Origin: Gemmatimonadaceae bacterium
Lineage (GTDB): Bacteria; Gemmatimonadota; Gemmatimonadetes; Gemmatimonadales; Gemmatimonadaceae
Direction of reading: 5' to 3'
NCBI GenBank assembly: GCA_025450815.1
Contig: JANWLO010000004.1
Span: 1 to 33,770 of the forward strand
Length of the DNA stretch: 33,770 nt
The notes beneath the pieces are model-generated. The model had not been told where the DNA came from, searched no databases, and was given only the letters and a program-made list of their open reading frames with translations. The translations under genes and the position numbers were made by a program. This document shows positions 5,538 through 26,465 of this stretch, piece by piece. Within the stretch, counting starts at the first letter, position 1; each line of letters begins with the position of its first letter.

Positions 5538-5669
5538 GTCTGCCAGAAGCGTAGCGGCGAGGTATTTGCTCCGTCCGGCGGGAACCAAAGACCCCGAATT
5601 TGGCCTAAGATGGACTGGCGCAGCCCTCGGCTCGACTGCACCTTCCGACCCCCTCCGACGCTTCCGCTC

Positions 5670-6983
5670 ATGATCTCATCGGCGACTACGACCGACCCGA
5701 CGGCGACATCGCTCAGTAGCTTGCATCGTTCCCCTCGGAACGATGCGCTCGGATCCCGCTACGCGGCGGTACGCGCGCAAACCGAGCGGCTCTGCGATCC
5801 ACTCGACACGGAGGACTACGTCGTCAGCAGCATGGCGGATGTGAGTCCCACCAAGTGGCATCTCGCGCACACGAGCTGGTTCTTCGAGACGTTCGTGCTC
5901 GGCCCGCACGCGCCGGACTATCTCTCGCCCAATTCCAAATACGCTTTTCTTTTCAATTCGTACTACGTGCAGGCCGGCGAGCGCCACTGTCGCGCGAAGC
6001 GCGGGCTCGTGACGCGTCCAACCGTGCGCGAGGTATTCGAGTACCGCGCGCACGTGGATGCTGCGATGCACGCGCTCATCGACCGCATAGCGGGCGACAC
6101 GGCGCATCCGGCGCACGCGCTCATCGAGCTCGGACTCCATCACGAGCAGCAGCATCAGGAGCTGCTGGTAACGGACATCAAGCACGTGTTCTGGATGAAT
6201 CCTCTTCGCCCCGTGTACCGCGAGCGAAGTACGGATGCGCCGCAGCCTGCATCCCCGGCGCGCTGGCAGACGATCACCGGCGGCGTGCACCGCATCGGCC
6301 ATGATGGCGATGGCTTCGCATTCGACAACGAGTCTCCCGCGCATCGCGTGTTCCTGGAGGATTTCCGGCTCGCGTCGCGTCTCGTGACGAACGCCGAGTA
6401 CCTGGAGTTCATCGACGATCGTGGTTACAGCCGCCCCGAGCTCTGGCTCTCTCCCGGGCTCGCTACGGTGCAGGATCAGAAGTGGGAAGCGCCGTTCTAC
6501 TGGGAGCACGCGCCCGAAGGATGGACCGAGTTCACGCTCGCGGGCACGCGCGAGGTCGCGCCCGATGAGCCGGTGTGCCACGTGAGCTACTACGAGGCGG
6601 ATGCCTTCGCGCGCTGGGCCGGCAAGCGTCTGCCAACGGAGGCCGAGTGGGAGATAGCCGCACGAGGAGAGCCCGTGACGGGCAACTTCGTGGAAGCAGA
6701 GCGCTTTCATCCGGCGCCGGCCAACCCGAACGCGCGCGGCCTCGCGCAGCTCTACGGCGATTCATGGCAATGGACGCAGAGCGCGTACGTCGGCTATCCG
6801 GGATTCAAGCCCGCGGGCGGCGCGATCGGCGAGTACAACGGCAAGTGGATGGCGGACCAGTGGGTGCTGCGCGGAGCATCGTGCGCAACGCCACAGTCGC
6901 ACGCGCGGACGACGTACCGGAACTTCTTTCCGTCGGACTCACGGTGGCAGTTCACCGGTATTCGTCTCGCCGACCACTCGTGA
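5670..6983 (+). CDS. egtB: Ergothioneine biosynthesis sulfoxide synthase EgtB
   Basis: DinB-like N-terminus (SPTKWHLAHTSWFFETF, HHEQQHQELL) plus FGE-sulfatase domain ending RGASCATPQSHARTTYRNFFPSDSRWQFTGIRLA; start chosen at MISSATTT inside ORF 5610..6983. Confidence 0.93.
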   Translation: MISSATTTDPTATSLSSLHRSPRNDALGSRYAAVRAQTERLCDPLDTEDYVVSSMADVSPTKWHLAHTSWFFETFVLGPHAPDYLSPNSKYAFLFNSYYVQAGERHCRAKRGLVTRPTVREVFEYRAHVDAAMHALIDRIAGDTAHPAHALIELGLHHEQQHQELLVTDIKHVFWMNPLRPVYRERSTDAPQPASPARWQTITGGVHRIGHDGDGFAFDNESPAHRVFLEDFRLASRLVTNAEYLEFIDDRGYSRPELWLSPGLATVQDQKWEAPFYWEHAPEGWTEFTLAGTREVAPDEPVCHVSYYEADAFARWAGKRLPTEAEWEIAARGEPVTGNFVEAERFHPAPANPNARGLAQLYGDSWQWTQSAYVGYPGFKPAGGAIGEYNGKWMADQWVLRGASCATPQSHARTTYRNFFPSDSRWQFTGIRLADHS

Positions 6984-6993
6984 GGAGCTGAGC

Positions 6994-7968
6994 ATGACGA
7001 TGCCATACGAGCGACGCCGCGCTCCCGCTGCGGAGCCGCGTCCCGATGCCAACACGCTTGCGCGCGACGTCGTGCAGGGGCTGACGTCGAACCCGAAGAC
7101 GCTTCCGCCCAAGCTCTTCTACGACGCCAGGGGCGCGGAGCTGTTCGAGCGAATCAGCGAGCTGCCCGAGTACTATCTCACACGCGCCGAGCTCGAGATC
7201 CTGCGCTCGCGCAGCGGCGAGATCGCCGAGCTCGCGGGCCCGCACGCAACGCTCATCGAGTACGGCAGCGGCGCCGGCGTGAAAATCCGGCTACTGCTGA
7301 ACGCGCTCGAGTCGCCCGCGGCGTACGTGCCCATCGACATCTCTCGCGAGCAGCTTGCGCGCGTCGCGAGTGAGCTTGCCGCCGAGTACCCCGCGGTGGA
7401 CGTGCGGCCGCTCAACGCGGACTACACTATGCCGCTCACTCTCCCACCGTTGCGCGACGGCTCACGACGGCTCGCGTTCTTTCCGGGGTCCACCATCGGA
7501 AACTTCCATCCAATGGAGGCATCCATCTTCCTGCGTCGCGTGCGACGGACCGTGGGCAAGAGCGGCGCGCTCGTGCTCGGCGTGGATCGCCGGAAGCGCG
7601 CCGGGATTCTCGACGCGGCGTACGATGATGCTGCCGGCGTTACTGCCGCGTTCAACCTCAACATGCTCGCGCGCATCAATCGCGAGCTAAGCACCGATTT
7701 CGATCTCGATCGCTTCGCGCACCGAGCGTATTTCAATTCGAAGGCGAGCCGCGTCGAGATGCACCTAGTGAGCCTTGCCGCGCAGACGGTCCACGTGGCC
7801 GGGGAGTCGATCCGGTTCGCCAAGGGCGAGTCGATCTGGACGGAAAGCTCCTACAAGTACGATCGCGCGCGCCTGCGCGAGCTCACCGAGTCCGCCGGCT
7901 TCAGGCTCGACCGGCTGTGGACCGACGCGAAGAAGCAGTTCTGGGTCGCCTACCTTTCGGCCATGTGA
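6994..7968 (+). CDS. egtD: L-histidine N(alpha)-methyltransferase EgtD
   Basis: 324 aa; PPKLFYDARGAELFERISELPEYYLTRAELEIL, IEYGSGAGVKIRLLL, FFPGSTIGNFHP typical of EgtD; 11 nt after egtB. Confidence 0.93.
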   Translation: MTMPYERRRAPAAEPRPDANTLARDVVQGLTSNPKTLPPKLFYDARGAELFERISELPEYYLTRAELEILRSRSGEIAELAGPHATLIEYGSGAGVKIRLLLNALESPAAYVPIDISREQLARVASELAAEYPAVDVRPLNADYTMPLTLPPLRDGSRRLAFFPGSTIGNFHPMEASIFLRRVRRTVGKSGALVLGVDRRKRAGILDAAYDDAAGVTAAFNLNMLARINRELSTDFDLDRFAHRAYFNSKASRVEMHLVSLAAQTVHVAGESIRFAKGESIWTESSYKYDRARLRELTESAGFRLDRLWTDAKKQFWVAYLSAM

Positions 7969-11060: not shown

Positions 11061-12590
11061 ATGACCTTCCAGCGCAAGATGCTGTATGGCTTTTCGCTCA
11101 TGGTACTGCCCGCGCTGCTGATCGGCGTCGAGGCGATACGCACGAACGTGCTGGAGCGCGATGCGCTGCAAATGCTCGGGCAGAACATGGCGCGCACGCG
11201 CACGTACGCCGAGCTCGAGACTGCGATGTTCAACCAGAGCGAGATCATCTGGCGCTATCTCAGTGGGCTGGACCCGCACGCGCGCGACGAGTTCCGCGTG
11301 ACGGGACAGGTGATCGACTTCTGGCAGCAGCGGTGGCGCTCCGAGCTTCGGCCCAACGAGATGGGAATGGCGAACAGCACCGAGGAAATCGAGCGCCAGA
11401 TTCGCATCGTGTCGGACAGCGTCTTCAGACTCTACGATGCGGGGCAGCGAGAGGAGTCGTACCGGCTGGCCGAGCGGGATTTGCGGGACCGGCTGCTGCC
11501 TGCGCTGACGCAGCTGAATCGGGATATATATCGCGAGGCGCGCGAGTCGAGTGTGCGCGGCGCGTACACGCAGCTCGAGGACATCGTCACGGGTGAGCGC
11601 GACGTGCTGATCGCGATCCTCGTGCTCGCGGTGGCGGCGGGCCTCGTCGGCTCGTGGCTCATCTCTCGAGGGCTCGCGCGTCCACTCAGCGAGCTGCGGC
11701 GTGCGATGGCACTCGTTGGCGCGGGCGAGACGGAATTCCCGATCGACGTGAGCTCGCCGGACGAGATCGGCGATCTCGCACGGTCGTTCGCTCGCATGAC
11801 GGAGAGTTTGCGCCAGTCGCGTGCCGGCACGACGCGCCTCAACTCGGAGCTCGAGCGAAAGATCGCGCAACTCGAGCTTACGCAGGCCCAGCTCGTTCAA
11901 TCGGAGAAGCTCGCGTCCATCGGCGAGATGGCGGCGGCGGTGGCGCACGGCATCCGCAATCCGCTTGCGAGCCTGCGCGCGGCGGCACAGGTCGCGCTGC
12001 GCCACCCGGAGTCACCGGAGTCGCGCGAGCATCTGAGCGTCATCATCGAAGAAGTGGACCGCCTCGATCGACGCGTGAGCCACCTGCTCAGCTTCTCGAA
12101 GCCGGCACCGTATCATCCGTTGCGCGAGAGCGTTGCGCGATTGATCGAGGATCTGCTCCCGCCTTTTTCCGAGCTGCTGCGCGAGCGGCACGTGGAGCTG
12201 GAGCTCGCGCTCGCGCTCGATCTTCCGGATGTGCGCGTCGACCCGATGCAGCTCGAGCAGGCACTGGTGGAGGTCGTCTCGAATGCGCTCGACGCCATGC
12301 CGGCGGGTGGCAAGCTTCGCATCGCGGCGCGCCCGGAGCGCGGCGCGAGCGGAAGTGTCGGCGTCGTGATCGAGGTGGCGGATTCCGGGATGGGCATTCC
12401 GGAGAAGGTTCTGCCATCGGTATGCGAGCCGTTCTTTACAACGCGTGCGGAGGGCACGGGGCTCGGCCTCGCGATCGCGAAGCGGTACGTCGAACAGAAC
12501 GGCGGACAGCTCGAAATCCTGAGCGTGCCTGGTGAGGGCGTGACGGTGCTTATCCGGCTGCGCGCGGAAGCAGCGGGGACAATCGCGTGA
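11061..12590 (+). CDS. NtrB-like sensor histidine kinase (4HB-like sensor, HAMP, HisKA, HATPase)
   Basis: two TM segments, HAMP (SRGLARPLSELRRAMALVG), H box AAAVAHGIRNPLASLRAA, ATPase DSGMGIPEK and GTGLGLAIAKRYVEQNGG. Confidence 0.92.
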   Translation: MTFQRKMLYGFSLMVLPALLIGVEAIRTNVLERDALQMLGQNMARTRTYAELETAMFNQSEIIWRYLSGLDPHARDEFRVTGQVIDFWQQRWRSELRPNEMGMANSTEEIERQIRIVSDSVFRLYDAGQREESYRLAERDLRDRLLPALTQLNRDIYREARESSVRGAYTQLEDIVTGERDVLIAILVLAVAAGLVGSWLISRGLARPLSELRRAMALVGAGETEFPIDVSSPDEIGDLARSFARMTESLRQSRAGTTRLNSELERKIAQLELTQAQLVQSEKLASIGEMAAAVAHGIRNPLASLRAAAQVALRHPESPESREHLSVIIEEVDRLDRRVSHLLSFSKPAPYHPLRESVARLIEDLLPPFSELLRERHVELELALALDLPDVRVDPMQLEQALVEVVSNALDAMPAGGKLRIAARPERGASGSVGVVIEVADSGMGIPEKVLPSVCEPFFTTRAEGTGLGLAIAKRYVEQNGGQLEILSVPGEGVTVLIRLRAEAAGTIA

Positions 12591-13975
12591 GCAATCCGAC
12601 GGTACTCATCGTGGACGACGAGCGAACGCTTGCGCGCTCGATCAGGATCTTTCTCTCGGAGTCGGGCTACGACGCCGAGATCGCGGGCGATGGCGAGAAG
12701 GCGCTCGAGCTGCTCGAGAGCCTGCGTCCGGACGTCGTGTTCGCGGACGTGCGACTGCCCGGCATGGGAGGAATCGAGCTGTTGCAGCGCATTCGCGACT
12801 TCGATGCGACGATACCGGTGGTGATCATGACCGCGTATGGAAGCATCGAGGGCGCGGTCGAGGCGGTGAAGCTGGGCGCGTTCGACTATCTGAAAAAGCC
12901 GGTCGATCTGGAGGAGCTCAAGCTTCTCGCGGATCGTGCGCGTGAGACGTCGCTGCTGAAGCAGGAGCTCTCGTACTATCGCGGCCGCGAGGCTCGCAAG
13001 CTTCCGTTCTCGGGCGTGATTGGCGAGTCTCCGGCGCTGCTTACCATCATGGAGCGGGCGCACCAGGTGGCGGCGCTCGATGACACGCCGCCGGTGCTCA
13101 TCACGGGCGAGACGGGTACCGGCAAGGGACTCATTGCACATACGATTCACACGTACGGTCCGCGTGCATCGAAGCCGTTCATCGAGGTGAACTGCACTGC
13201 GCTTCCCGCGAGCCTGATGGAGGCCGAGCTGTTCGGCCACGAGCGCGGCGCATTTACGGATGCGAAGCAATCCAGGATCGGACTGTTCGAGGCGGCGGAG
13301 CACGGATTCATCTTCCTCGACGAGATCGGCGATACGGAGCTCCAGCTGCAGGGGAAACTCCTGCGCGCGATCGAGGAGCGGATGGTGCGGCGCGTCGGCG
13401 GCATTCGCGATCGCAAGATCGACGTGCGCATTCTGGCGGCGACGAATCGCGATCTGGAACGCGAGGCGCAGCAGGGAACCTTTCGGCGAGATCTCTACTT
13501 TCGGCTCGCGGTGATTCTCCTCCGGTTGCCGCCGCTGCGCGAGCGCGGCGATGATGTGCTGCTGCTCGCCGACGACTTCGTGCGCCGATTCAGCGCGAAG
13601 TACGGCAAGGAGGTGAAACGCATTAGCGCTGGCGCGCGCGATGCGCTGCTCGCGTACTCGTGGCCGGGCAATGTGCGCGAGCTGAGTCACGTCATCGAGC
13701 GCGCTGTGCTGTGGAGCCAGGGGACGGTGCTGGAGGAGTCGCAGCTCACGCTCACGCAACCGGTCGAGCTTGAGGCGCGCGCCACCGAGTCCGATTCGCC
13801 ACTGACGATTCCGGGAATACTTCCACCCAAGGGCACCGACCTCGCACAGTGGGAGAAAGCGATGATAGAGCAGGCGCTCCGCGAGTCGGGCGGCAACCAG
13901 ACGCAGGCTGCGCAGCGATTGGGCGTGAGCCGAGACACGCTGCGCTACCGGCTCAAGAAGTACGGCATCCAGTAG
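12587..13975 (+). CDS. NtrC-family sigma54-dependent response regulator
   Basis: receiver (VLIVDDERTLARS, VVFADVRLPGMGG), AAA+ (GETGTGKGLIAHTIH, ELFGHERGAFTDA, IFLDEIGD), Fis-type HTH (NQTQAAQRLGVSRDTLRYRLKKYGI); GTG start overlapping the kinase stop by 4 nt. Confidence 0.95.
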   Translation: MSNPTVLIVDDERTLARSIRIFLSESGYDAEIAGDGEKALELLESLRPDVVFADVRLPGMGGIELLQRIRDFDATIPVVIMTAYGSIEGAVEAVKLGAFDYLKKPVDLEELKLLADRARETSLLKQELSYYRGREARKLPFSGVIGESPALLTIMERAHQVAALDDTPPVLITGETGTGKGLIAHTIHTYGPRASKPFIEVNCTALPASLMEAELFGHERGAFTDAKQSRIGLFEAAEHGFIFLDEIGDTELQLQGKLLRAIEERMVRRVGGIRDRKIDVRILAATNRDLEREAQQGTFRRDLYFRLAVILLRLPPLRERGDDVLLLADDFVRRFSAKYGKEVKRISAGARDALLAYSWPGNVRELSHVIERAVLWSQGTVLEESQLTLTQPVELEARATESDSPLTIPGILPPKGTDLAQWEKAMIEQALRESGGNQTQAAQRLGVSRDTLRYRLKKYGIQ

Positions 13976-14309: not shown

Positions 14310-15218
14310 ATGCATGTAATTCTGCTCGGCACCGCCGCCGGTGGAGGCTTTCCCCAATGGAACTGCTGGTGTCCGACGTGCCGCGCGGCGCGCGAGACAT
14401 CGGAGCTGGCCCGCGCGCGCACGCAGTCGTCGATCGCCTTCAGCGCCGACGGCGCACGCTGGTTCCTCGGCAATGCGTCCCCCGACGTGCGCGAGCAGCT
14501 CGCGCGGCTTCCACGCGCGGAAGTGCGCGGGATGCGGCACGTGCCGGTGGAAGGCATCGTGCTCACGGACGCGGAGCTCGACCACACTCTTGGGATCGCG
14601 CTGCTTCGGGAGGGGCGTCTGCTGCAGGTGATCGCGACGCCGTCGGTGTTGCGCACGATCACCGAAGACTCACGCGTGCTTCCGGTGACGCAGGCATTCG
14701 CCACGGTGCAGACGGTGAACGCCGAGCTCGGAAGCGTGGTGCCGCTCGAGTACCGCAATGGAAGCGCGAGCGGACTCACGGTCGAGATGATGGCCGTGCG
14801 CGGCGATCCGCCGCGCTTCGCCCGACACGACGATGAGGGCCACACGGTGGCGACGTTCATTCGCGAGATGAGCACCGGGAAAACGTTCGCGTTCGTGCCG
14901 GGATGCGGCGGACTTGGACCGCGGCTGTTGTCGCGATTGAACGAGGCCGACCTGCTGCTGTTCGACGGCACCTTCTGGACCGACGACGAGCTCATTCGGC
15001 TCGACATCTCCGGCAGGCCGGCGCTCGCGATGGGACACGTTCCAATCACGGGGCGTGAGGGAAGCCTCACGATTCTGTCGCAGCTGGCGTGCCGGCAGAA
15101 GGTGTATACGCACATCAACAACACGAACCCGATGCTCATCGAATCGTCGGACGAGCGCGCGTTGGTGGAGGCGGCAGGGATCCTCGTCGGTATGGATGGA
15201 ATGCGCTTCGAGCTCTGA
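14310..15218 (+). CDS. pqqB: PQQ biosynthesis protein PqqB
   Basis: 302 aa; MHVILLGTAAGGGFPQWNCWCPTCR, LTDAELDHTLGIALLREG, GHVPITGREGSL, YTHINNTNP. Confidence 0.96.
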   Translation: MHVILLGTAAGGGFPQWNCWCPTCRAARETSELARARTQSSIAFSADGARWFLGNASPDVREQLARLPRAEVRGMRHVPVEGIVLTDAELDHTLGIALLREGRLLQVIATPSVLRTITEDSRVLPVTQAFATVQTVNAELGSVVPLEYRNGSASGLTVEMMAVRGDPPRFARHDDEGHTVATFIREMSTGKTFAFVPGCGGLGPRLLSRLNEADLLLFDGTFWTDDELIRLDISGRPALAMGHVPITGREGSLTILSQLACRQKVYTHINNTNPMLIESSDERALVEAAGILVGMDGMRFEL

Positions 15219-15275
15219 GGCGCGCGATTTGCGCGGATCGTGGCACCACTACCCGCCACGCGGTATGATTTGATC

Positions 15276-16031
15276 ATGACGACTTCGCTGCTCTCCGCGC
15301 CCACCATCGCGGCACCACCCCCGCCGCCCATCCCGAATCTCGATCGTCCACTCGCGCCTGACGCGCTCGTAGCGGCGCTACGCGGCTTTCATGGATCGTA
15401 TTACGTGGAGCACCCGTTCCATCAGCTGATGCATGAGGGCAAGCTCTCGCAGCGGCAGATGCAGGGGTGGGTTACGAACCGGCTCGCGTACCAGCGCGCA
15501 ATCCCGCGCAAGGACGGCGCGATCATCTCGAACTGCCCCGTGCCCGCGGTGCGACGAAAGTGGATCCAGCGCATCATCGACCACGACGGCACGCGCGATG
15601 GCGAGGGCGGCATCGAGAAGTGGATCCAGCTCGGCATCGCGTTCGGCGTTCCGCGCGAGGAGATGGAGGATGAGCGCCACGTACTCCCCGGCGTGCGCTT
15701 CGCGGCGGAGATGTACGTCACGTTCTGCAAAACCCGACCGTGGGTCGAGGCGGCGGCATCATCGCTCACGGAGCTGTTCGCGCCGGACATCATGCGGCGG
15801 CGTCTCGACGCGCTGCCGAAGTACTATCCGTGGATTCGCGCGGACGCGTACGAGTATTTCAACAGCCGCCTGACGCAGGCGCCGCGCGACAGCAACCACG
15901 GGCTCGAGATCGTCACGACGTACTGCACCACTGTCGAGACGCAGCAGCGCGCGTTCGAAGCGCTCGCGTTCAAGATCGAGATGTTGTGGGTGATGATCGA
16001 TACCATCCACAACGCATACCGCGAATCGTGA
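15276..16031 (+). CDS. pqqC: Pyrroloquinoline-quinone synthase PqqC
   Basis: YYVEHPFHQLMHEGKLSQRQMQGWVTNRLAYQRAIPRKDGAIISNCP; start chosen at ATG 15276 within ORF 15240..16031. Confidence 0.96.
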   Translation: MTTSLLSAPTIAAPPPPPIPNLDRPLAPDALVAALRGFHGSYYVEHPFHQLMHEGKLSQRQMQGWVTNRLAYQRAIPRKDGAIISNCPVPAVRRKWIQRIIDHDGTRDGEGGIEKWIQLGIAFGVPREEMEDERHVLPGVRFAAEMYVTFCKTRPWVEAAASSLTELFAPDIMRRRLDALPKYYPWIRADAYEYFNSRLTQAPRDSNHGLEIVTTYCTTVETQQRAFEALAFKIEMLWVMIDTIHNAYRES

Positions 16032-16035
16032 CGCG

Positions 16036-16311
16036 ATGACGTTGTCCGAGATGTCGCGGCCCAAGCTCTGGAAGTTTGCGCGCGTGCAATACGACGAGGC
16101 GCGGCAGCGTAGCGTGCTGCAGTACCCGGAAGGCGCGGTGCTCCTGAACGACAGCGCGGCGGAGATTCTCGCGCTGTGCGACGGCAATCGGACGTTGGCG
16201 GACATAGCGGCGGCGCTCGGTCAGCGTTACGGCGCGAACGTGCTCGAGGACGTGCAGTCGTATCTCTCGCAGCTGGCGGATCGCGAGTTGGTTCGCGACG
16301 AAAGCCAGTGA
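16036..16311 (+). CDS. pqqD: PQQ peptide chaperone PqqD
   Basis: 91 aa; PEGAVLLNDSAAEILALCDGNRTLADIAAALGQRYG...DVQSYLSQLADRELV. Confidence 0.94.
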   Translation: MTLSEMSRPKLWKFARVQYDEARQRSVLQYPEGAVLLNDSAAEILALCDGNRTLADIAAALGQRYGANVLEDVQSYLSQLADRELVRDESQ

Positions 16312-16463
16312 TTTTCCGGCCGAGCACGCTGCGTCAATTGCCCCGATGTGGGTGTTCTGCCCCGGCTCGAGAGGTCAGCCATAACTGTGATCGCGGCGCT
16401 ATCGAACTGTGCAACTCTTTTTGTGACATATACTTGCAGGCATCGCCGAGAGCTCGAAAATAA

Positions 16464-16479
16464 CGGCACGGTCGGTGCT
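16464..16479 (+). promoter_or_regulatory. Candidate sigma54 (-24/-12) promoter upstream of pqqA
   Basis: CGGCACGGTCGGTGCT vs TGGCACGNNNNTTGCW: 10 of 12 defined positions, invariant GG and GC with correct spacing. Confidence 0.45.
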
Positions 16480-16558
16480 TTAGTCACGGTAGTCGCGAGT
16501 CGGTCAGTATCCGCTGCCGGGCGCGAGCACACACCCCTCAGTCAACAGGAGCTTCGCG

Positions 16559-16633
16559 ATGACCTGGACCAAGCCGGAATTCGAGGTTGTGGAAGTCACG
16601 ATGGAAATCACCGCCTACGTCGCCCGGCGCTAG
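16559..16633 (+). CDS. pqqA: PQQ precursor peptide PqqA (24 aa)
   Basis: ATG..TAG encodes MTWTKPEFEVVEVTMEITAYVARR; ExxxY core (E16, Y20) characteristic of PqqA; lies between pqqD and pqqE; too short for the supplied ORF track. Confidence 0.96.
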   Translation: MTWTKPEFEVVEVTMEITAYVARR

Positions 16634-16646
16634 TCGTCGGCCGTAG

Positions 16647-16686
16647 CGAGATGAGGGGGCTCGCTGTCGTGGGCCCCCTCGTCTCG
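16647..16686 (+). terminator. Strong hairpin between pqqA and pqqE (attenuator / RNA stabiliser candidate)
   Basis: CGAGATGAGGGGGC (16647-16660) pairs with GCCCCCTCGTCTCG (16673-16686): 14-bp stem with one T:G wobble, 12-nt loop; no T-tract after it. Confidence 0.75.
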
Positions 16687-16701
16687 TCTGCCTGACGCGA
16701 T

Positions 16702-17805
16702 ATGGAACGCAGACCCACGACTCTGCTCGCGGAGCTCACGCACCGCTGCCCGCTTCACTGCCCCTACTGCTCCAACCCGATCGACCTCGCGCGCTCGCAG
16801 ACCGAGCTGTCGACCGATGATTGGAAGCGCGTGTTCACGCAGGCGCGCTCACTCGGCGTTCTGCAGCTCGGACTGTCCGGTGGCGAGCCCCTCGTGCGAC
16901 GCGACCTCGAATCACTCGTCGCCCACGCACACACTCTCGGCCTCTACCAGACGCTCGTCACCTCCGCGCTGGGGCTAACGCGAGAGCGTGCGGAGCGATT
17001 GAAGGCCGCTGGTCTCGAGCACGTGCAGATCTCGTTTCAGGACGCTGATAGGGTTGCGGCGGAGCGCATTGCAGGAACGCGAAGCTGGGATGCGAAGCAC
17101 CAGGCGGCTTCATGGATCAAGGAGCTCGACTTCGCGTTCAGCGTCAACGTCGTACTCCACCGCGCGAATCTCGATCATCTCACCGAGATCATCGACATGG
17201 CGGCAGCGCTCGGCGCTGATCGCATCGAGCTCGCCAACACTCAGTATTACGGCTGGGCCGTGATTAATCGCGAGTCGCTCATGCCCACGCGCGCACAGAT
17301 CGAGCGCTCCGAGAGCATCGTCGATCGCGCTGTGGAGAAGTATCGCGGCAAGATGCAGATCATCTACGTGCTTCCCGATTACTACAGCGAGTTCCCGAAG
17401 CCGTGCCAGGGAGGCTGGGGGAATTTCTACCTCGTAGTCGCGCCGGATGGCCGCACGATGCCCTGCCACGCAGCATCGCAGATCACGTCACTCAGCTTCG
17501 ACAATGTACGCGACCACGACGTGGAGTGGATCTGGCAGGAGTCGAGCGCCTTTCGCGCCTACCGCGGCGACGAGTGGATGAGGGAGCCGTGCCGGAGCTG
17601 TCCGCGCAAGCATGTCGACTTCGGCGGCTGCCGCTGCCAGGCATTCGCGCTCACGGGCGATGCGGCGCGTGCGGATCCCGTGTGCACGCTGACATCCGAT
17701 CGCGCGCTTATCGACGCGATGCTCGACGGCGAGCCGCCAGCATTGGGCTATACATATCGCGAGATGGGACGTTCGGCCGAGCCGGCCGTCGCCGCGCACA
17801 TTTAG
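16702..17805 (+). CDS. pqqE: PqqA peptide cyclase PqqE (radical SAM)
   Basis: ELTHRCPLHCPYCSNP radical SAM CxxxCxxC motif; C-terminal SPASM Cys cluster (CRSCPRKHVDFGGCRCQAF). Confidence 0.96.
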   Translation: MERRPTTLLAELTHRCPLHCPYCSNPIDLARSQTELSTDDWKRVFTQARSLGVLQLGLSGGEPLVRRDLESLVAHAHTLGLYQTLVTSALGLTRERAERLKAAGLEHVQISFQDADRVAAERIAGTRSWDAKHQAASWIKELDFAFSVNVVLHRANLDHLTEIIDMAAALGADRIELANTQYYGWAVINRESLMPTRAQIERSESIVDRAVEKYRGKMQIIYVLPDYYSEFPKPCQGGWGNFYLVVAPDGRTMPCHAASQITSLSFDNVRDHDVEWIWQESSAFRAYRGDEWMREPCRSCPRKHVDFGGCRCQAFALTGDAARADPVCTLTSDRALIDAMLDGEPPALGYTYREMGRSAEPAVAAHI

Positions 17806-17816
17806 AGGACAAGGCA

Positions 17817-18476
17817 ATGCTGGAATCCGAGCTCTTCGCACTACTCGAGCAGACCGCCGATGCGGCCTACACCGTCACCGACGACGGTGAGATCCGTTCG
17901 TGGAACCGGGCGGCCGAGCGCCTCCTCGGGTACTCCGCGAGCGAGATGGTGGGTCGTTACGTGGACGACGCGCTCGAGGCACGCGATTCACTCGACACTC
18001 CCGTGCTCGCGGGCGGCGCCGACTCGAGGGTCCGGAAATGCGACGACACTGACTGCTCGCCACCGAACTTCGATCTCCATGTGCGCACGCGGAGCGGCGC
18101 GCGGCTCTGGGTGAGCGTGTCCACGATCGTGCACCACAATCGCCGATCCGGACGCCGGCTGTTCATCCGCCTCGCGCACGACATCGATCAGAGCCGGCGC
18201 AACGAGGAGCTGCTTGGCCGCCTTCTGGAAGTGACGAGACAGCATGTCACGTTGCAGAACTCGACGCACCATGCGCCGGTAGATTCGCTCTCGGACCAGG
18301 AGGGCCGGATCCTCAAGCTACTCGCGACGGGAATCAGCTCGGCGACGATCGCGCGCAATCTCGGGATCTCCGCGCAGACGCTCCGCAATCACGTGCACCA
18401 CATAAACCGCAAGCTTCGCACTCATACGCGGCTCGAAGCGGTGACGCACGCGCAGCGGCGCGGGCTCATCGCGTAG
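17817..18476 (+). CDS. PAS domain - LuxR-type HTH transcriptional regulator
   Basis: MLESELFALLEQTADAAYTVTDDGEIRSWNRAAERLLGYSASEMVG (PAS); LSDQEGRILKLLATGISSATIARNLGISAQTLRNHVHHINRKL (LuxR HTH); starts 12 nt after the pqqE stop. Confidence 0.88.
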   Translation: MLESELFALLEQTADAAYTVTDDGEIRSWNRAAERLLGYSASEMVGRYVDDALEARDSLDTPVLAGGADSRVRKCDDTDCSPPNFDLHVRTRSGARLWVSVSTIVHHNRRSGRRLFIRLAHDIDQSRRNEELLGRLLEVTRQHVTLQNSTHHAPVDSLSDQEGRILKLLATGISSATIARNLGISAQTLRNHVHHINRKLRTHTRLEAVTHAQRRGLIA

Positions 18477-18479
18477 CCC

Positions 18480-20432
18480 TCACGCTCGCTCGAGAACCTC
18501 GCGCACCTTCTCCGCCATATCGTATGGCAGGAAGGGCTTCTGCAGAAAATCGACCTTGGCGTTGGCGAGGCTGCGAAGCATCACGTCGTCGTCGTGATAC
18601 CCCGACATGAAGAGCACGCGAACCGTTGGCCAGATGCCCCGAATGCGCTCGGCCATCGCACGCGCGTTCATCCCCGGCATAACGACATCGGTGATGACCA
18701 GATGAATCGGGCGCGCGGAGGACTCAGCGACCTTGATCGCCTCCTCGCCGTCGGGCGCCTCGAGAACGCGATATCCCTTCTGCTGCAGGATTCTCCGCAC
18801 GAGCTCGCGGAGCGACGGTTGATCCTCTACTACCAGGATCGTCTCGGAGCCGGTCGAGCTTCTCGGCGCGGCCTGCTGCACATCGACCCTTCCCGTGGTC
18901 GAAACCTGCGGAAAATAGATCGTGAAGCTCGTGCCTTTGCCCGGCGTGCTCGCGAGGTGCAGCTCTCCGCCCGACTGTTTGACAATTCCGTGAACGGTGG
19001 ACAAACCGAGTCCGGTGCCGTGCCCGAGTGGCTTGGTCGTGAAGAACGGCTCGAAGATCCGGTTGCGCGTTGCCTTGTCCATGCCGACGCCCGTGTCGCT
19101 GACGGTGAGTCGCTCGCACGTACCAGTGGCAATGCCAGCGACCCAGTCGCTCGACTTCGTGTGCTGCTGCACCGTCTGCGTGGCGATCGTGATGCAGCCT
19201 CCGTCCGGCATTGCATCGCGAGCGTTCACGGTGAGGTTGATGATCACCTGTTCGATCTGCCCGGGATCGGCGAGCACCCAGCCACCGTTCTCCGCGAGAT
19301 CGAGCACGAGCTCGATGTTGTCGCCGATGAGGCGGCTCAGCATGCTCTCGACCGTGCGAATGACGGTGCGCAGCTCGATGGGGCGGGGTTGGAGCACCTG
19401 GCGCCGCCCAAAGGCGAGGAGCTGCTTCGTGAGCGCGGCAGCGGAGGTCGCAGCGCGCTTGATCTCGCAGATGTCCGCGTGCGCCGGCGATGACGGATCG
19501 AGGCCATCGAGGGCGAGATCGCTGTTGCCCTGAATGACGGTGAGCAGATTGTTGAAGTCGTGCGCGATGCCGCCGGCGAGCTGCCCAATGCCTTCCATCT
19601 TCTGCGCCTGGCGCAGCTCGAGCTCGAGCTGAGTGCGCTCGGTGATGTCGCGTACGAGGCCGCTCATGTGCGCGCTGCCGCTGGCATCATCGAGCACGAT
19701 GGTGCCTCCGTTGACAACGAGCCGCACGGTGCCGTCGGGGTGGATGACCCGAAACTCCTCTTCGAAGCGTGGGGAGAGTCCATCCGCGCACGCTTCCCAC
19801 GCCGCGCGAACGCGCGGCTGGTCGGCGGGGTCGATGCCGTTCCACCAGACGGCCGCGTCCTGATAGAACTCCTCTGCGGTGCGTCCCCAGATGAGCTCGA
19901 CCGCCGGACTCACGTAGAGCACGCGTTCCGGCTTCAGTCCAACGAACCAGAAGCCATCGCGGCTGTGCTGCGCGAGAAGACGAAACCGCTCTTCGCTCGC
20001 GCGCAGCTCCGCCTCGGCGCGCCGGCGCTTGCGCTGCTCGTCCGCCGCGATGATGGCGCGCCGTACGGCGTTGGGCAGGCGCTCCAGTCGCTGCTTGAGC
20101 AGGTAGTCGGTGGCGCCCAGATGCAGGCACTTCACCGCCTCCTCCTCGCCGAGCGATCCGGAGATGACGATCACGGGCACGTCGGGCTGCGATGCGCGAG
20201 CTGCGCTCAACGCGGAGATGCCGTCGTAGTCCGGCAAGTTGAAGTCGCAGAGGATGACGTGATACGTCGCGTCGTTCAACGCGGTCTCGAACCCTTTGCG
20301 ATTGCTCACTCGCGTGATCACGCTCTTCAGCCCCGCAACCTCGAGGCGATCGTGAATCAACTCCGCATCCTTGGCGTTGTCCTCGAGATGCAGCAGACGC
20401 ACGGGAGTCGTGTCTCCGGGAACTCGGGTCAT
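18480..20432 (-). CDS. Hybrid histidine kinase: receiver-PAS-HisKA-HATPase-receiver
   Basis: N-term [20 protein letters not shown] box [22 protein letters not shown]-terminal receiver [14 protein letters not shown]...[11 protein letters not shown]. Confidence 0.93.
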
Positions 20433-21574
20433 GATGCGGGCGCGGGGCGAAGCGTGAAGTAGATCGTAGCTCCCTCATCGACGACCCCCTCGGCCCACGT
20501 TCTTCCGCCGTGGCGCTCGATGATGCGACGCGTGGTCGCGAGGCCGATCCCGGTGCCTTCGAACTCCTCGGCGTTGTGCAGGCGACGAAAGACGCCGAAC
20601 AGCTTGTGCGAGTAGCGCATGTCGAAGCCGGCGCCGTTGTCGCGTACGAAAAAGATGCTCCGTCCGTCCTCGACACCCGCGACGCCGATCTCCACCTTCG
20701 CAAGTTCGCGTCCCTTCGTGTACTTGATTGCGTTGTCGATGAGGTTGGCAAATACCTGGCGGAGCATCGCGAAGTCGCCGATTACGCGCGGCAGCGGCCC
20801 GATCTTCCACTCGATCTTTCGAGTGTTCGTCGCCAGTTGAAAGCCTCGCAACGCCTCATCGACCACCGCGCTGAGATCAACCGGCGCTTCGTGCATCTCC
20901 TCGGCACTCATGCGCGAGAAGGCGAGCAAGTCGTCGATCAGCTGCCCCATTTCGACGCTAGCCGAGCTGATGGTCTTTAGGTAGCGCTCCGCGTTTTCCG
21001 GCAGAATTCCCTCCGTGGCGCGCCGCAGCATGCCGACGTAGCCCTCGATGTGCCGGAGCGGCGCGCGCAGATCGTGCGACACGGAATAGGAGAAAGCCTC
21101 CAGCTCCTTGTTCACTGCTACGAGCTGCGCGGTACGCTCGGCGACGCGATGCTCGAGATCGCGATTGAGCGTTCTGATCTCCTCCTCCGTACGCTTGCGC
21201 TCCATGGCGTAGCGGATGGCGCGCTTGAGGAGGAAGCTGTTGATGCGCCCCTTCACAAGGTAGTCCTGGGCGCCGCACGACACGGCTTCCGACGCAAGTT
21301 GCTCGTCGTCCGCGCCACTGAAGATCACGATGGGTAGCCCCGGGACGCGATCGTTGATGCGATGGAACGTGTCCATCCCCTGGCTGTCGGGAAGACCGAG
21401 ATCGAGCAGGAGCACTTCGATCGGATCGCGGTCGAGGCTCTCGAGCAGCTCGTCGACGCGCGTGGAAAGCGTGAGACGAAACTGCGTGACCGGCGGCTCG
21501 CGCAGCATCTCCTGGATGAGGCGCGCGTCGCCCGGGTTGTCCTCGACCAATCCGATACGCAGCATCGTCGCCAC
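20429..21574 (-). CDS. Receiver-histidine kinase protein
   Basis: N-term receiver RIGLVEDNPGDARLIQEML, LLLDLGLPDSQG; H box FSYSVSHDLRAPLRHIEGYVGML; HATPase. Confidence 0.93.
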   Translation of the reverse strand: MATMLRIGLVEDNPGDARLIQEMLREPPVTQFRLTLSTRVDELLESLDRDPIEVLLLDLGLPDSQGMDTFHRINDRVPGLPIVIFSGADDEQLASEAVSCGAQDYLVKGRINSFLLKRAIRYAMERKRTEEEIRTLNRDLEHRVAERTAQLVAVNKELEAFSYSVSHDLRAPLRHIEGYVGMLRRATEGILPENAERYLKTISSASVEMGQLIDDLLAFSRMSAEEMHEAPVDLSAVVDEALRGFQLATNTRKIEWKIGPLPRVIGDFAMLRQVFANLIDNAIKYTKGRELAKVEIGVAGVEDGRSIFFVRDNGAGFDMRYSHKLFGVFRRLHNAEEFEGTGIGLATTRRIIERHGGRTWAEGVVDEGATIYFTLRPAPAS

Positions 21575-21577
21575 TCA

Positions 21578-22024
21578 TTACCTCGGCGGGAGCTTGACGA
21601 TCGTGAACCAGAAGCTCTCGATCGCCTTGACGACGGTGATGAACTGCTCGATCGCGAGCGGCTTCGTGACGTAGCAGTTCGCGTGCAACGAATACGATTT
21701 CACGATGTCCTCTTCCGCCTTGGAGGTGGTGAGGATGACCACCGGAATTCGTTTCAGATCCTCGTCCTCCTTGATCTCCCGAAGCACCTCGCGGCCGTCC
21801 TTCCGCGGCAGATTCAGGTCGAGCATGATCAGGTCAGGGCGCGGTGCCTTGGCATGCTCGCCCTGGCGGCGCAGAAAGGCGAGCGCCCGGACGCCGTCCT
21901 CGGCGACGTGCAGATTGTTGAGCAGCTTGCACTCGCGCAGCCCCTCGCGGGCAAGGCGCACGTCGCCCGCGTTGTCTTCCACGAGCAGAATTTCGACTGG
22001 ACGCCCCATCGTTGACTCGCTCAT
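21578..22024 (-). CDS. Single-domain response regulator (Rcp1-like)
   Basis: MSESTMGRPVEILLVEDNAGDVRLAREGL...LIMLDLNLPRKDGREVLREIK...VVILTTSKAEEDIVKSY; start at 22024 overlaps the upstream stop as ATGA. Confidence 0.92.
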   Translation of the reverse strand: MSESTMGRPVEILLVEDNAGDVRLAREGLRECKLLNNLHVAEDGVRALAFLRRQGEHAKAPRPDLIMLDLNLPRKDGREVLREIKEDEDLKRIPVVILTTSKAEEDIVKSYSLHANCYVTKPLAIEQFITVVKAIESFWFTIVKLPPR

Positions 22025-23829
22025 GCTGTTCCGGAGTGATCCCGTTTGGGGATGGTGAAGAAGAATGTCGATCCCTCGTGAGGCTTCGACTCGACCCAGA
22101 TCTTTCCGCCGTGACGCTCGACGATGCGCTTGCACAGCGCGAGGCCGATCCCCGTTCCCGGGTAGTCTCCCTTGGTGTGAAGTCGCTGGAAAATGACGAA
22201 GATGCGCTCGAAGTACTCTGCCTCGATTCCGATCCCGTCGTCGTGTACGGAGAACTCCCAGCTCGATTCGCTTTCGACCGCCTGCACGCGCACGTGCGGG
22301 CCGGTGCCGTTGCGAAATTTGATTGCGTTTCCGATGAGATTCTGCATGACTTGGCCGATCTGCCCCGCATCGGCGACGATCTGCGGCATCTGTCCACTCG
22401 TCAGAATGGCACCGGCTTCCTCCATCGCAACGCCGAGGTTGGCGCGAACCGTTCCCAGAATCTCGCCGACGTCGGTGAGCGCGAGTGGCCGGCCGCGCGT
22501 GCTGACGCGAGAAAAGTCGAGGAGGTCGTTGATCAGCCTCTGCATGCGGCTGGCACCGTCCACGGCGTAGCCAATGAACTCGCGCGCGTCGTCGTCCAGC
22601 TTGTCGGAGTAGCGACGCTCGAGAAGCTGCGTGTAGCTGGAGACCATGCGCAGCGGCTCCTGCAGATCGTGCGACGCGACGTACGCGAACAGTTCCAGCT
22701 CCTTGTTGCTCCGCTCGAGCTCTACGACCAGCCCCTTCATCCGCTCCTCGGCGCGCTTCCGTTCGGTGATGTCCCAGAACACACCGGTCATGCGCGACAA
22801 TTGACCGGTGGTGCCCGGAAGGACCTTGCCGCGCGCGGAGAGGTCGCGAATCGTTCCGTCCGGCCAGCGCACCCGGAAAATGCTCTCGTACGCTTCGCTC
22901 GTCGCCCCCGCACGCTCCATCTCCGCGCGAACGCGCCCCCGATCATCGTGGTGCGCGAGTGCGAGGAAGGAGTCGTACGTGCCGGCGAACGCGCCGGGCT
23001 GTACGCCGAATAGCGGATACGTGAATTCGTCCCAGCTCATGCGACTGTTCGTGATGTCCCAAACCCAGGTACCCACCCCCGATGCCTTGAGCGCGAGATT
23101 CAGCCGCTCGTGGCTTTCGCGGATCGCCCGGTCCTGTTCCTCGATCTGGCCGAGCATGTGGTTGAAAGCGTCGGTGAGCAGCCCGAGCTCATCCTCACCG
23201 ATCTTCGCGGCGCGCACCGAATAGTCGCCCCGCTGCGAGATCGCCTTCGCCGTTTCCGCCATCGCCAGGATCGGCCGCGAGATATGACCCTGCAGCGCCG
23301 CCGCAAGCAGATAGGCAACGACTAGCGAGACGAGCATCACGAGCGCGGCAAGTGCCGTATAGCGTGTGAGCCTGTCGTACATCGCCGACTTGTTCGACTC
23401 GAGGAGGAGCGTGCCCAGCCGGTTGTTGTCTCCCTGGACCACCGGCATGTAGCCGAGGAGACGCGACCCCTCCGAGCGGAAGCCATCGTGTTCTGGCACA
23501 CGCGGGAACGAGTCGGCGGGAAACGCAGCGGGATATCTCGCGAACAGCTTTCCATCGGAGTCGTACAGCGCGGCCGCGATGATCTGCGGCCGGGCCTTGA
23601 GCGCGGACAGCACCTCGGTCGCATCGCTCTCATTGTCGAATGCCAGCGAGGCGGTACTGTTGGTTGCGATGACGTCGCCGAGCGTGGACAGACCCTGAAA
23701 AGCCTTCTCCTTGAAGGTCGTGAGCTCGTAGGTGAAGAACGCCGCGCACGTCAGCAGCAGCACCACGCTGCTGGTGAGCATGAGTATCACCATCAACTTC
23801 CGCTTGATCGGCGTATCTCGAAATGCCAT
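22021..23829 (-). CDS. Membrane histidine kinase with CHASE8-like periplasmic domain, HAMP, PAS, HisKA/HATPase
   Basis: TTFKEKAFQGLSTLGDVIATNSTASLAFDNESDATEVLSALKARPQIIAAALYDSDGKLFARYP resembles the YfiN/TpbB sensor domain; HAMP; PAS; H box FAYVASHDLQEPLRMVSSYTQLLERRY. Confidence 0.9.
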   Translation of the reverse strand: MAFRDTPIKRKLMVILMLTSSVVLLLTCAAFFTYELTTFKEKAFQGLSTLGDVIATNSTASLAFDNESDATEVLSALKARPQIIAAALYDSDGKLFARYPAAFPADSFPRVPEHDGFRSEGSRLLGYMPVVQGDNNRLGTLLLESNKSAMYDRLTRYTALAALVMLVSLVVAYLLAAALQGHISRPILAMAETAKAISQRGDYSVRAAKIGEDELGLLTDAFNHMLGQIEEQDRAIRESHERLNLALKASGVGTWVWDITNSRMSWDEFTYPLFGVQPGAFAGTYDSFLALAHHDDRGRVRAEMERAGATSEAYESIFRVRWPDGTIRDLSARGKVLPGTTGQLSRMTGVFWDITERKRAEERMKGLVVELERSNKELELFAYVASHDLQEPLRMVSSYTQLLERRYSDKLDDDAREFIGYAVDGASRMQRLINDLLDFSRVSTRGRPLALTDVGEILGTVRANLGVAMEEAGAILTSGQMPQIVADAGQIGQVMQNLIGNAIKFRNGTGPHVRVQAVESESSWEFSVHDDGIGIEAEYFERIFVIFQRLHTKGDYPGTGIGLALCKRIVERHGGKIWVESKPHEGSTFFFTIPKRDHSGTA

Positions 23830-23832
23830 GGC

Positions 23833-24426
23833 TCAGTCGTCTCTACTGGCGACGATCTCCGCGGACCGCAGCAGCTTCGAGCTGATCGTGAGGCTCGACG
23901 CCCTTGCGGCATCCACGTTGATCTTCAGGCGAATCTTTCCATTCTCGGTGGCGAGCTGAATCATCCCCCCGCGCGCAGCAAATGCGTCGGCATCGCTCAC
24001 CGTGAGCACGTCGTTTCCCTTCACCTGGGAAAGTACCTTCTGCAGATTCTTGTCCTGGGACCGGCTGATGAAAAGGACCTGGCACGCAGCGATATCCTCC
24101 GGCCGGCGAAAGCGTCGGACCGTCAGCCGCCGGCTGTTCACCAGCTCGCCCCGCACGATGTCGTCGAGGTATGGACCGAACGGGTCGTCTCCCAGCACAC
24201 CGATCACGAGTGAGGCCGTATCCTCCGGAAATGCGGCGGGCGGCCAGTCGACGAACTGCGTGAAGTTGAAGAGGAACGCGGCCTTCACCTGATATTCGCG
24301 TGACGGAGCGGACTGGCCGTACGCGTTCGGGCTGTCGGTGAGCAACAGTCCGAAGGCGACGCAGAACAGTGTGCGCACCGCGCGCGCGATGCGGGGCGCT
24401 CGCGAGCGACGCCCTAGAAACGCCAC
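23833..24426 (-). CDS. YfiR family (DUF4154) periplasmic protein
   Basis: signal peptide; SREYQVKAAFLFNFTQFVDWPPAAF..., LVIGVLGDDPFG, CQVLFISRSQ, GGMIQLATENGKIRLKINVDAARASSLTISSKLLRSAEI. Confidence 0.92.
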   Translation of the reverse strand: MAFLGRRSRAPRIARAVRTLFCVAFGLLLTDSPNAYGQSAPSREYQVKAAFLFNFTQFVDWPPAAFPEDTASLVIGVLGDDPFGPYLDDIVRGELVNSRRLTVRRFRRPEDIAACQVLFISRSQDKNLQKVLSQVKGNDVLTVSDADAFAARGGMIQLATENGKIRLKINVDAARASSLTISSKLLRSAEIVASRDD

Positions 24427-26465
24427 GAAACCTTGCCATACACGGCGCGAAGGATCTCAACACGCGTCGGGTCCGGCACGCCGAACTCGGGGTGATGCTT
24501 GTGCAGCAGATTTTGTCCGGCAACCGAGAGTTCCAGCTGCCGTGTTGCGTGCCATCCGAGCCGCAAATTCATGTCCGTGTACTTCGGCACGATCGCAAGC
24601 ACGCCGCCGTTGTTCGTGTAGATCTTGTCCACGGAGCGAAGGCCAGCGTCGAAGTCGACGTTCCGTGGCAGATCGAACGACGAGTTGAGCGAGAACTGCC
24701 GCTCGGGATCGGCGGTCTCGTTGAGAGCATGATTGATGTCGACCTCGCCCGGCTTGACGTGCAGACTCTCCTTGAGCACGTCGAAGCCTGCTCGCAGCCG
24801 CCACCAGGCAAGCGGCTGGTACGTCGCGCTCAACTCGATGCCGTGTGTCTCGCCCTCGAGATTGTTCGCGAAGAAAAACGGAATGATCGTGGCAGGTGTG
24901 AAGCTCGCGCTGCGCAGATCGCTGTAGTCATTATAGAAGGTGGAGACCGAGGCCGAAATTCTGGAAGTGAGCGCTGCGCGGTATCCGAGCTCGTAAGCGA
25001 TTAGCGTTTCCGACTCGAAATCACTGCTGCCTTCCAGAAGAATCGGAAACTGCGTGGGCTCTTTGAGGTCGCGATCTACGCGTGACGGCGTACGAACGGC
25101 GCGAGAGACTGCCGCCCACACCATGTGCTTCTGCGACATACTCCATCGGAGACGCGCCGTGGGCTCCGCTTCGAATCCCGTGTAGTCGTTGTGCTCGAGC
25201 TTCGTACCGAGCGTCAGCAACACCTTCTGCGCGAGCGCAATCTCGTCCTGCACGAAGCCGCTCACGAGACTGTGATCGAGATGCGCCGGGAAGAAGCCGA
25301 GCGGACGCGAGTTGGTGACGATGTCATGCGTGAATCGATAGCCGAGTCCCCACACGATGCGATTGCGCTGGCCGAAGGCGAGGCGATGCTCGAAGTCCAC
25401 ATCGTAGGTATCGAGCCGGTCCTTCAGGGTTCCACCAGGCGAGAACTGGCTGGCAGGCTCGGGATTCGACAGCTGAGTGTGATCGTAATACAGCTGCAGA
25501 CTCATGTCCGACGTGGGAGAAATCGCGTGCGACCAGCGGCTCGAGAGATTGCCCCCACTCGCCGTGGTCGTTCCTCCCGTAAACACGTTCTCATTGCCGC
25601 CGTATCCGTCAGCCGACACCATCAATGAGTCGCGCGCTGACGTCTGTGCGTCGAGGCGGAATCCGCCCTGCCCCATTCGCCACGAGTCGGTGGCATCGTC
25701 CCCGTTGGGGTAGACCTCGTTGTCGCGATCGAAGTACTTGCCGTACGCACGGTACGTCGCTTGGCCACCAAGGGCGCCGCCGTAGCGCACGCCCGCGAAG
25801 TCATTCAGTGACGTGCCGCCGCCAGCTTCGGCGTACGCACCCTGCGTCTCCCCGGAGCTTCGGGTGATGATGTTGATAACGCCGTTCACGGCGTTCGCGC
25901 CCCACACGGCGCCGCCCGGGCCGCTGATGACTTCGATCCGGTCTATGTCTTCGAGGAGCACGTCCTGAATGTCCCAGAACACGCCGGAGAAGAGCGGCGT
26001 GTAAACACTCCGGCCGTCGATGAGAACGAGCAGCTTGTTCGCGGTGGTGCTGTTGAATCCGCGTGCGGTTATCGCCCACTGATGCGAGCCCACTTGCGCG
26101 ACCTGCAGGTTGGGCGCGAGACGCAGCGCTTCGGGGATGTTCGTCGCGCCGGAGCGTCGAATCTCATCCCGCGTGATGACCTGAATCGCCGAGGCGGCTT
26201 GGGAGAGCTTCTCGGCTTTCCTGGATACGGAGGTGACCTCGATGTCCATCAGCTGCTCGACGCTCAATCGTTTGAGCACGCTCGGCGGCGGGATGGTGTC
26301 GGCGGCCTGCGCGAGCGCGCTCGGAGCGAGTAGCGCGAGACACGAAACAACACACAGTATCGCGATACGCTGCGCATTCCATGTGATGACGTGATCGATT
26401 GAGTGGTGCGACCTCCCTTCGGCGCGCGCGGGAGCAAAATCGGACTGCCCGGATGCCAACATCAA
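24414..26465 (-). CDS. TonB-dependent outer-membrane receptor
   Basis: 683 aa; plug domain IQVITRDEIRRSGATNIPEALRLAPNLQVAQVGSHQWAITARGFNSTTANKLLVLIDGRSVYTPLFSGVFWDIQDVLLEDIDRIEVISGPGGAVWGANAVNGVINIITR; barrel ends in KVSWRF. Confidence 0.93.
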   Translation of the reverse strand: MMLASGQSDFAPARAEGRSHHSIDHVITWNAQRIAILCVVSCLALLAPSALAQAADTIPPPSVLKRLSVEQLMDIEVTSVSRKAEKLSQAASAIQVITRDEIRRSGATNIPEALRLAPNLQVAQVGSHQWAITARGFNSTTANKLLVLIDGRSVYTPLFSGVFWDIQDVLLEDIDRIEVISGPGGAVWGANAVNGVINIITRSSGETQGAYAEAGGGTSLNDFAGVRYGGALGGQATYRAYGKYFDRDNEVYPNGDDATDSWRMGQGGFRLDAQTSARDSLMVSADGYGGNENVFTGGTTTASGGNLSSRWSHAISPTSDMSLQLYYDHTQLSNPEPASQFSPGGTLKDRLDTYDVDFEHRLAFGQRNRIVWGLGYRFTHDIVTNSRPLGFFPAHLDHSLVSGFVQDEIALAQKVLLTLGTKLEHNDYTGFEAEPTARLRWSMSQKHMVWAAVSRAVRTPSRVDRDLKEPTQFPILLEGSSDFESETLIAYELGYRAALTSRISASVSTFYNDYSDLRSASFTPATIIPFFFANNLEGETHGIELSATYQPLAWWRLRAGFDVLKESLHVKPGEVDINHALNETADPERQFSLNSSFDLPRNVDFDAGLRSVDKIYTNNGGVLAIVPKYTDMNLRLGWHATRQLELSVAGQNLLHKHHPEFGVPDPTRVEILRAVYGKVSWRF

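Follow-up and report, generated by a model that had tools for sequence, protein, structure and literature searches.

In Pseudomonas aeruginosa, the periplasmic protein YfiR represses its target through the PAS domain of YfiN, and YfiR is in turn withdrawn from the target by sequestration at the outer membrane (PMC3375315, PMC4655355). The outer-membrane member of this YfiBNR system, YfiB, is OmpA-like and the output of the system is a GGDEF domain. Yfi systems that lack YfiB and that carry kinase, HPT, GGDEF-EAL or MCP outputs have been described from distant phyla by Malone et al. 2012, whose text makes no mention of TonB and does not settle the input of these YfiB-less systems (PMC3375315). 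Receptors of the TonB-dependent class (TBDR) are known to pass a signal inward in the FecA/FoxA-type systems, and one such receptor, OmpS of Alcanivorax dieselolei, was reported to be necessary for alkane detection, and TOL_0244 of Thalassolituus, reported as 40.3% similar to OmpS, was sevenfold up on the n-C28 alkane relative to Tween 80 (PMC6304351).

In the current work, a window of 33,770 nt from a Gemmatimonadaceae draft genome (2.9 Mb, 68% complete) was analysed, in which a TBDR gene, a YfiR-like gene and a CHASE8 kinase gene (hereafter the trio) are followed by three receiver-containing genes. The locus has in common with YfiBNR and its HmsCDE-type relatives the YfiR fold, a CHASE8/PAS-HAMP target and the idea of an outer-membrane input, and with the YfiB-less systems of Malone et al. 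2012 a YfiR and PAS/HAMP core with exchanged outputs (PMC3375315). It differs from YfiBNR in having a TBDR in place of YfiB, with no OmpA domain detected by Pfam in the six genes, and in that its CHASE8-HAMP part carries a histidine kinase.

Gene order and domain content of the six-gene operon

Open reading frames are present at all six positions on the minus strand between 18480 and 26465, separated 5' to 3' along the operon by a 13-nt overlap, a 3-nt gap, a 4-nt overlap, a 3-nt gap and a 4-nt overlap, so that all five junctions described in the sequence-only reading were recovered. Promoter and terminator scans returned nothing above chance. At the first junction (24414..24426) the GTG start of yfiR lies across the terminal Trp codon of the receptor gene, and the same 13-nt geometry is seen in several phyla, being rarer in Gammaproteobacteria.

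The receptor (24414..26465), the putative outer-membrane input, matches the Pfam barrel (108.7 bits) and plug (77.2 bits) models, and the ATG at 26462, immediately after the TTG at 26465, is a likelier start. Pfam detected neither an STN domain in the receptor nor, in the operon, a sigma/anti-sigma pair, in both of which respects the locus differs from FecA/FoxA-type signalling. The receptor scores ≈410-880 bits against full-length trio receptors from other phyla and has no phmmer match at E<=1e-3 among the 18 other receptors of its own genome; by these comparisons and the divergence correlations given below it is a member of one trio-specific receptor family that is co-inherited across phyla.

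The YfiR-like protein (23833..24426) matches PF13689 (YfiR/HmsC-like) with 159.4 bits, in agreement with the sequence-only reading of it as YfiR, and its structure model (pLDDT 81.5) matches PDB YfiR entries with E ~1e-9. An identity as a YfiBNR-type YfiR is not supported: it falls below the YfiBNR-type model NF053586 (38.1 bits, cut-off 85) and passes that of a separate YfiR-like family, NF053591 (168.2 bits, cut-off 125). Three of the four cysteines of P. aeruginosa YfiR, which make up its conserved cysteine pairs, are absent in the alignment to PDB YfiR, and since identity is also low, details of the mechanism may differ.

The third gene (22021..23829) encodes a sensor kinase with the predicted CHASE8 domain at aa 40-143 (PF17152, 54.2 bits, cut-off 27), followed by HAMP, PAS_3, HisKA and HATPase_c (Pfam). 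The CHASE8 region has no match in the PDB by sequence; its structure was modelled with confidence (pLDDT 92), and the model is similar to extracytoplasmic sensors of the PAS-like kind, WalK and CitA among them. The N-terminal sensor part also passes NF053592, "sensor histidine kinase, YfiR-like protein-associated", a model which corresponds to that part of the protein (250.2 bits, cut-off 194).

Together with the receptor, which passes NF053590 (782.6 bits, cut-off 645), the window proteins thus exceed the curated cut-offs of all three models that the June 2026 release of NCBIfam holds for the trio, named after Thalassolituus oleivorans (the receptor and the YfiR-like protein falling in the TOL_0244 and TOL_0243 families, respectively), and therefore the locus belongs to a named but uncharacterised kind. 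These models give names without a described function, functional tests of the three families appear to be absent from the literature, and no paper joining a TBDR, YfiR and a kinase was found in the open-licence literature.

What the window adds to the NCBIfam trio is a three-gene receiver relay. It consists of a lone single-domain receiver without an output domain (21578..22024), a receiver-HisKA-HATPase_c protein (20429..21574) which weakly resembles LvrB in NCBIfam (85.8 bits, cut-off 500), and a hybrid kinase (18480..20432) in which two receivers flank PAS_3, HisKA and HATPase_c. The count of three kinases and four receivers in the six genes, with no DNA-binding, GGDEF or EAL domain found, agrees with the Pfam results, and inspection of the translations by eye located the His and Asp residues that accept phosphate, the Lys of the receivers and the N and G boxes of the kinases.

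Conservation and joint divergence of the first three genes

YfiR is sporadic in the Gemmatimonadetes class (22/295 genomes), and the survey was made on 116 loci, taken from four groups for having the highest YfiR scores rather than as a random sample, some of them cut by contig ends. A TBDR directly upstream and a CHASE8 protein downstream of YfiR, all on the same strand, were found at 66 of the 116, namely 19/26 in the Gemmatimonadetes class, 20/30 in Gammaproteobacteria, 19/30 in Verrucomicrobia and 8/30 in Bacteroidia. CHASE8 lies downstream of YfiR at 87 loci and was undetected at the other 29; loci without a detected TBDR neighbour are more numerous than these 29, and the Bacteroidia loci of the set mostly lack both, the missing neighbours being explained in part by contigs that end there. 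The TBDR-YfiR-CHASE8 order occurs in Gemmatimonadetes, Opitutae (Verrucomicrobia), Gammaproteobacteria including Rudaea, Chitinophagales, Mucilaginibacter and Ignavibacteriaceae, and a Sphingobium indicum plasmid carries annotated TBDR-YfiR-kinase genes. This recurrence at many distant loci indicates that the arrangement is not due to chance.

Every one of the 85 proteins taken to be CHASE8 neighbours of YfiR is recognised by the CHASE8 model of Pfam, and likewise by NF053592 at E<=1e-20. Their outputs are HisKA in 71, GGDEF in five, EAL in three and MCP in one, although many of these proteins are covered only to ~490 aa, where the flank ends, so that outputs further along were missed. A kinase is therefore the commonest output, and GGDEF a minority one, in the surveyed YfiR-linked CHASE8 proteins, and the suggestion that the Yfi sensor had been "rewired" to a kinase in the window is not supported, the more so as Yfi systems without YfiB had been shown in 2012 to include ones with a kinase or an MCP as output (PMC3375315).

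The six genes had also been proposed as one conserved unit, of which only the first three are widely kept. Beyond the window, all three receiver genes were seen solely in a second genome of the same genus and at two other Gemmatimonadetes loci, one having the last two genes swapped and the other being cut by a contig end; a lone receiver after the kinase is present at several Gemmatimonadetes and Bacteroidota loci.

The trio members also diverge jointly. Across 24 loci the distance matrices correlate at 0.893 for YfiR and CHASE8, 0.839 for TBDR and CHASE8, and 0.830 for TBDR and YfiR, and with the kinase core held constant the three values are still 0.75-0.85. For CHASE8 and the kinase core that follows it in one protein, the value over the same number of loci is 0.593, so that CHASE8 divergence tracks YfiR better than it tracks the kinase core to which CHASE8 is joined. 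These data speak for inheritance of the receptor, YfiR and CHASE8 together, as a single sensor to which different outputs can be joined. Given the co-occurrence and joint divergence of the trio across phyla, the reading in which a TBDR takes the place of YfiB as outer-membrane partner, and a kinase that of GGDEF, is well founded.

Several individual loci deserve mention. A gammaproteobacterial locus (L080) combines the trio order with a chemoreceptor (MCP) output, and so, by motif only, does a locus in the class to which the window belongs (L047). Many Bacteroidia YfiR genes (L115-L134) have neither a TBDR nor a CHASE8 neighbour, are adjoined by genes including those for WG-repeat and TPR proteins, and may have a different role. 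On the Sphingobium indicum plasmid (L184:5233-8732), genes for a KaiC-like ATPase and a hybrid kinase lie directly upstream of the trio; the KaiC-like gene was rejected as a trio partner, having been found near none of the other trios examined alongside. A tally of genes flanking the trios, made for a clue to the ligand, returned only signalling families as recurrent.

A candidate signalling route and its alternatives

We consider that the receptor, YfiR and the CHASE8 kinase work together as a trans-envelope sensor whose kinase, once switched, feeds the receiver relay, a reading to which we assign a probability of roughly 55%. With the physical contacts, sign of regulation and order of phosphotransfer that we infer, the receptor would bind a ligand outside the cell, and its ligand- or TonB-driven state would change the amount of free periplasmic YfiR and hence the grip of YfiR on CHASE8. 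YfiR would bind the PAS-like CHASE8 domain and set kinase activity, probably holding the kinase off by analogy with YfiR and YfiN of P. aeruginosa. The active kinase would phosphorylate the lone receiver, and the two receiver-kinases would extend a branched relay whose final target is expected to lie outside the operon.

The strongest competitor, tentative as it is, is a relay of the ligand itself, in which the TBDR imports a ligand into the periplasm, YfiR binds it and loaded YfiR docks on CHASE8, making contact between receptor and YfiR unnecessary. The YfiR model also matches, more weakly than it does YfiR entries, the one-lobe substrate-binding protein 6k1x (TM 0.49/0.60) and lobes of ABC binding proteins, and ligand binding would thus fit as well; TBDRs are importers, and joint inheritance of the trio would be expected here too. 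Against this relay stands P. aeruginosa YfiR, which acts through protein-protein contacts.

Envelope or outer-membrane stress sensing in the manner of YfiBNR, with the receptor a mere co-transcribed client, draws on the Pfam homology of YfiR and CHASE8 and on the redox and stress sensing on record for P. aeruginosa YfiR; we regard it as improbable, as the receptor comes from a single trio-specific family inherited across phyla and the redox cysteines are mostly missing in the window protein. Very unlikely is a role for the operon in local sensing of PQQ or of metabolism that depends on PQQ: the operon converges on pqqB, C, D and E (14310-17805), with a PAS-LuxR gene also adjoining, and PqqE adjoins the trio in the same-genus genome G004 as well, but no pqq gene was found near the trios of other genera examined and no PQQ-receptor family is among the NCBIfam matches listed, so that the link was rejected as local to the genus. 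That the genes are coincidental neighbours without a joint function, for which one may cite the surveyed YfiR loci lacking a TBDR or CHASE8 neighbour, is contradicted by cross-phylum recurrence, co-divergence and receptor specificity, and is scarcely credible.

Returning to the trans-envelope sensor, the recurrence of the trio in several phyla suggests how YfiB-less YfiR systems obtain their outside signal. At about even odds, a widespread class of TBDRs signals via a dedicated periplasmic YfiR shuttle to inner-membrane kinase, cyclase or chemoreceptor outputs, by a route separate from that of STN and anti-sigma factors, and provides the missing input of the YfiB-less Yfi systems. In many phyla, judging from the survey, YfiR would be fed by a single dedicated family of receptors, and the sensor would be passed on independently of the output. 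Should this be borne out, TBDRs would gain a second way of signalling across the periplasm, and the inputs of many orphan kinases would become testable.

Neighbouring genes in the window

The genes converging on the 3' end of the operon (14310-18476, plus strand) comprise pqqB, pqqC and pqqE (NCBIfam), a pqqD-like ORF and then the PAS-LuxR regulator; at the same-genus locus L030, PqqE is next to the trio and the PAS-LuxR regulator is absent. At 5610-7968 (plus strand), the gene for an FGE-sulfatase/DinB protein precedes that for a histidine-specific methyltransferase, the two forming an ergothioneine-type, EgtB-EgtD-like pair. Near the operon, a HAMP kinase and, after it, a response regulator of the sigma-54 NtrC type (11061-13975, plus strand) constitute a complete two-component pair.
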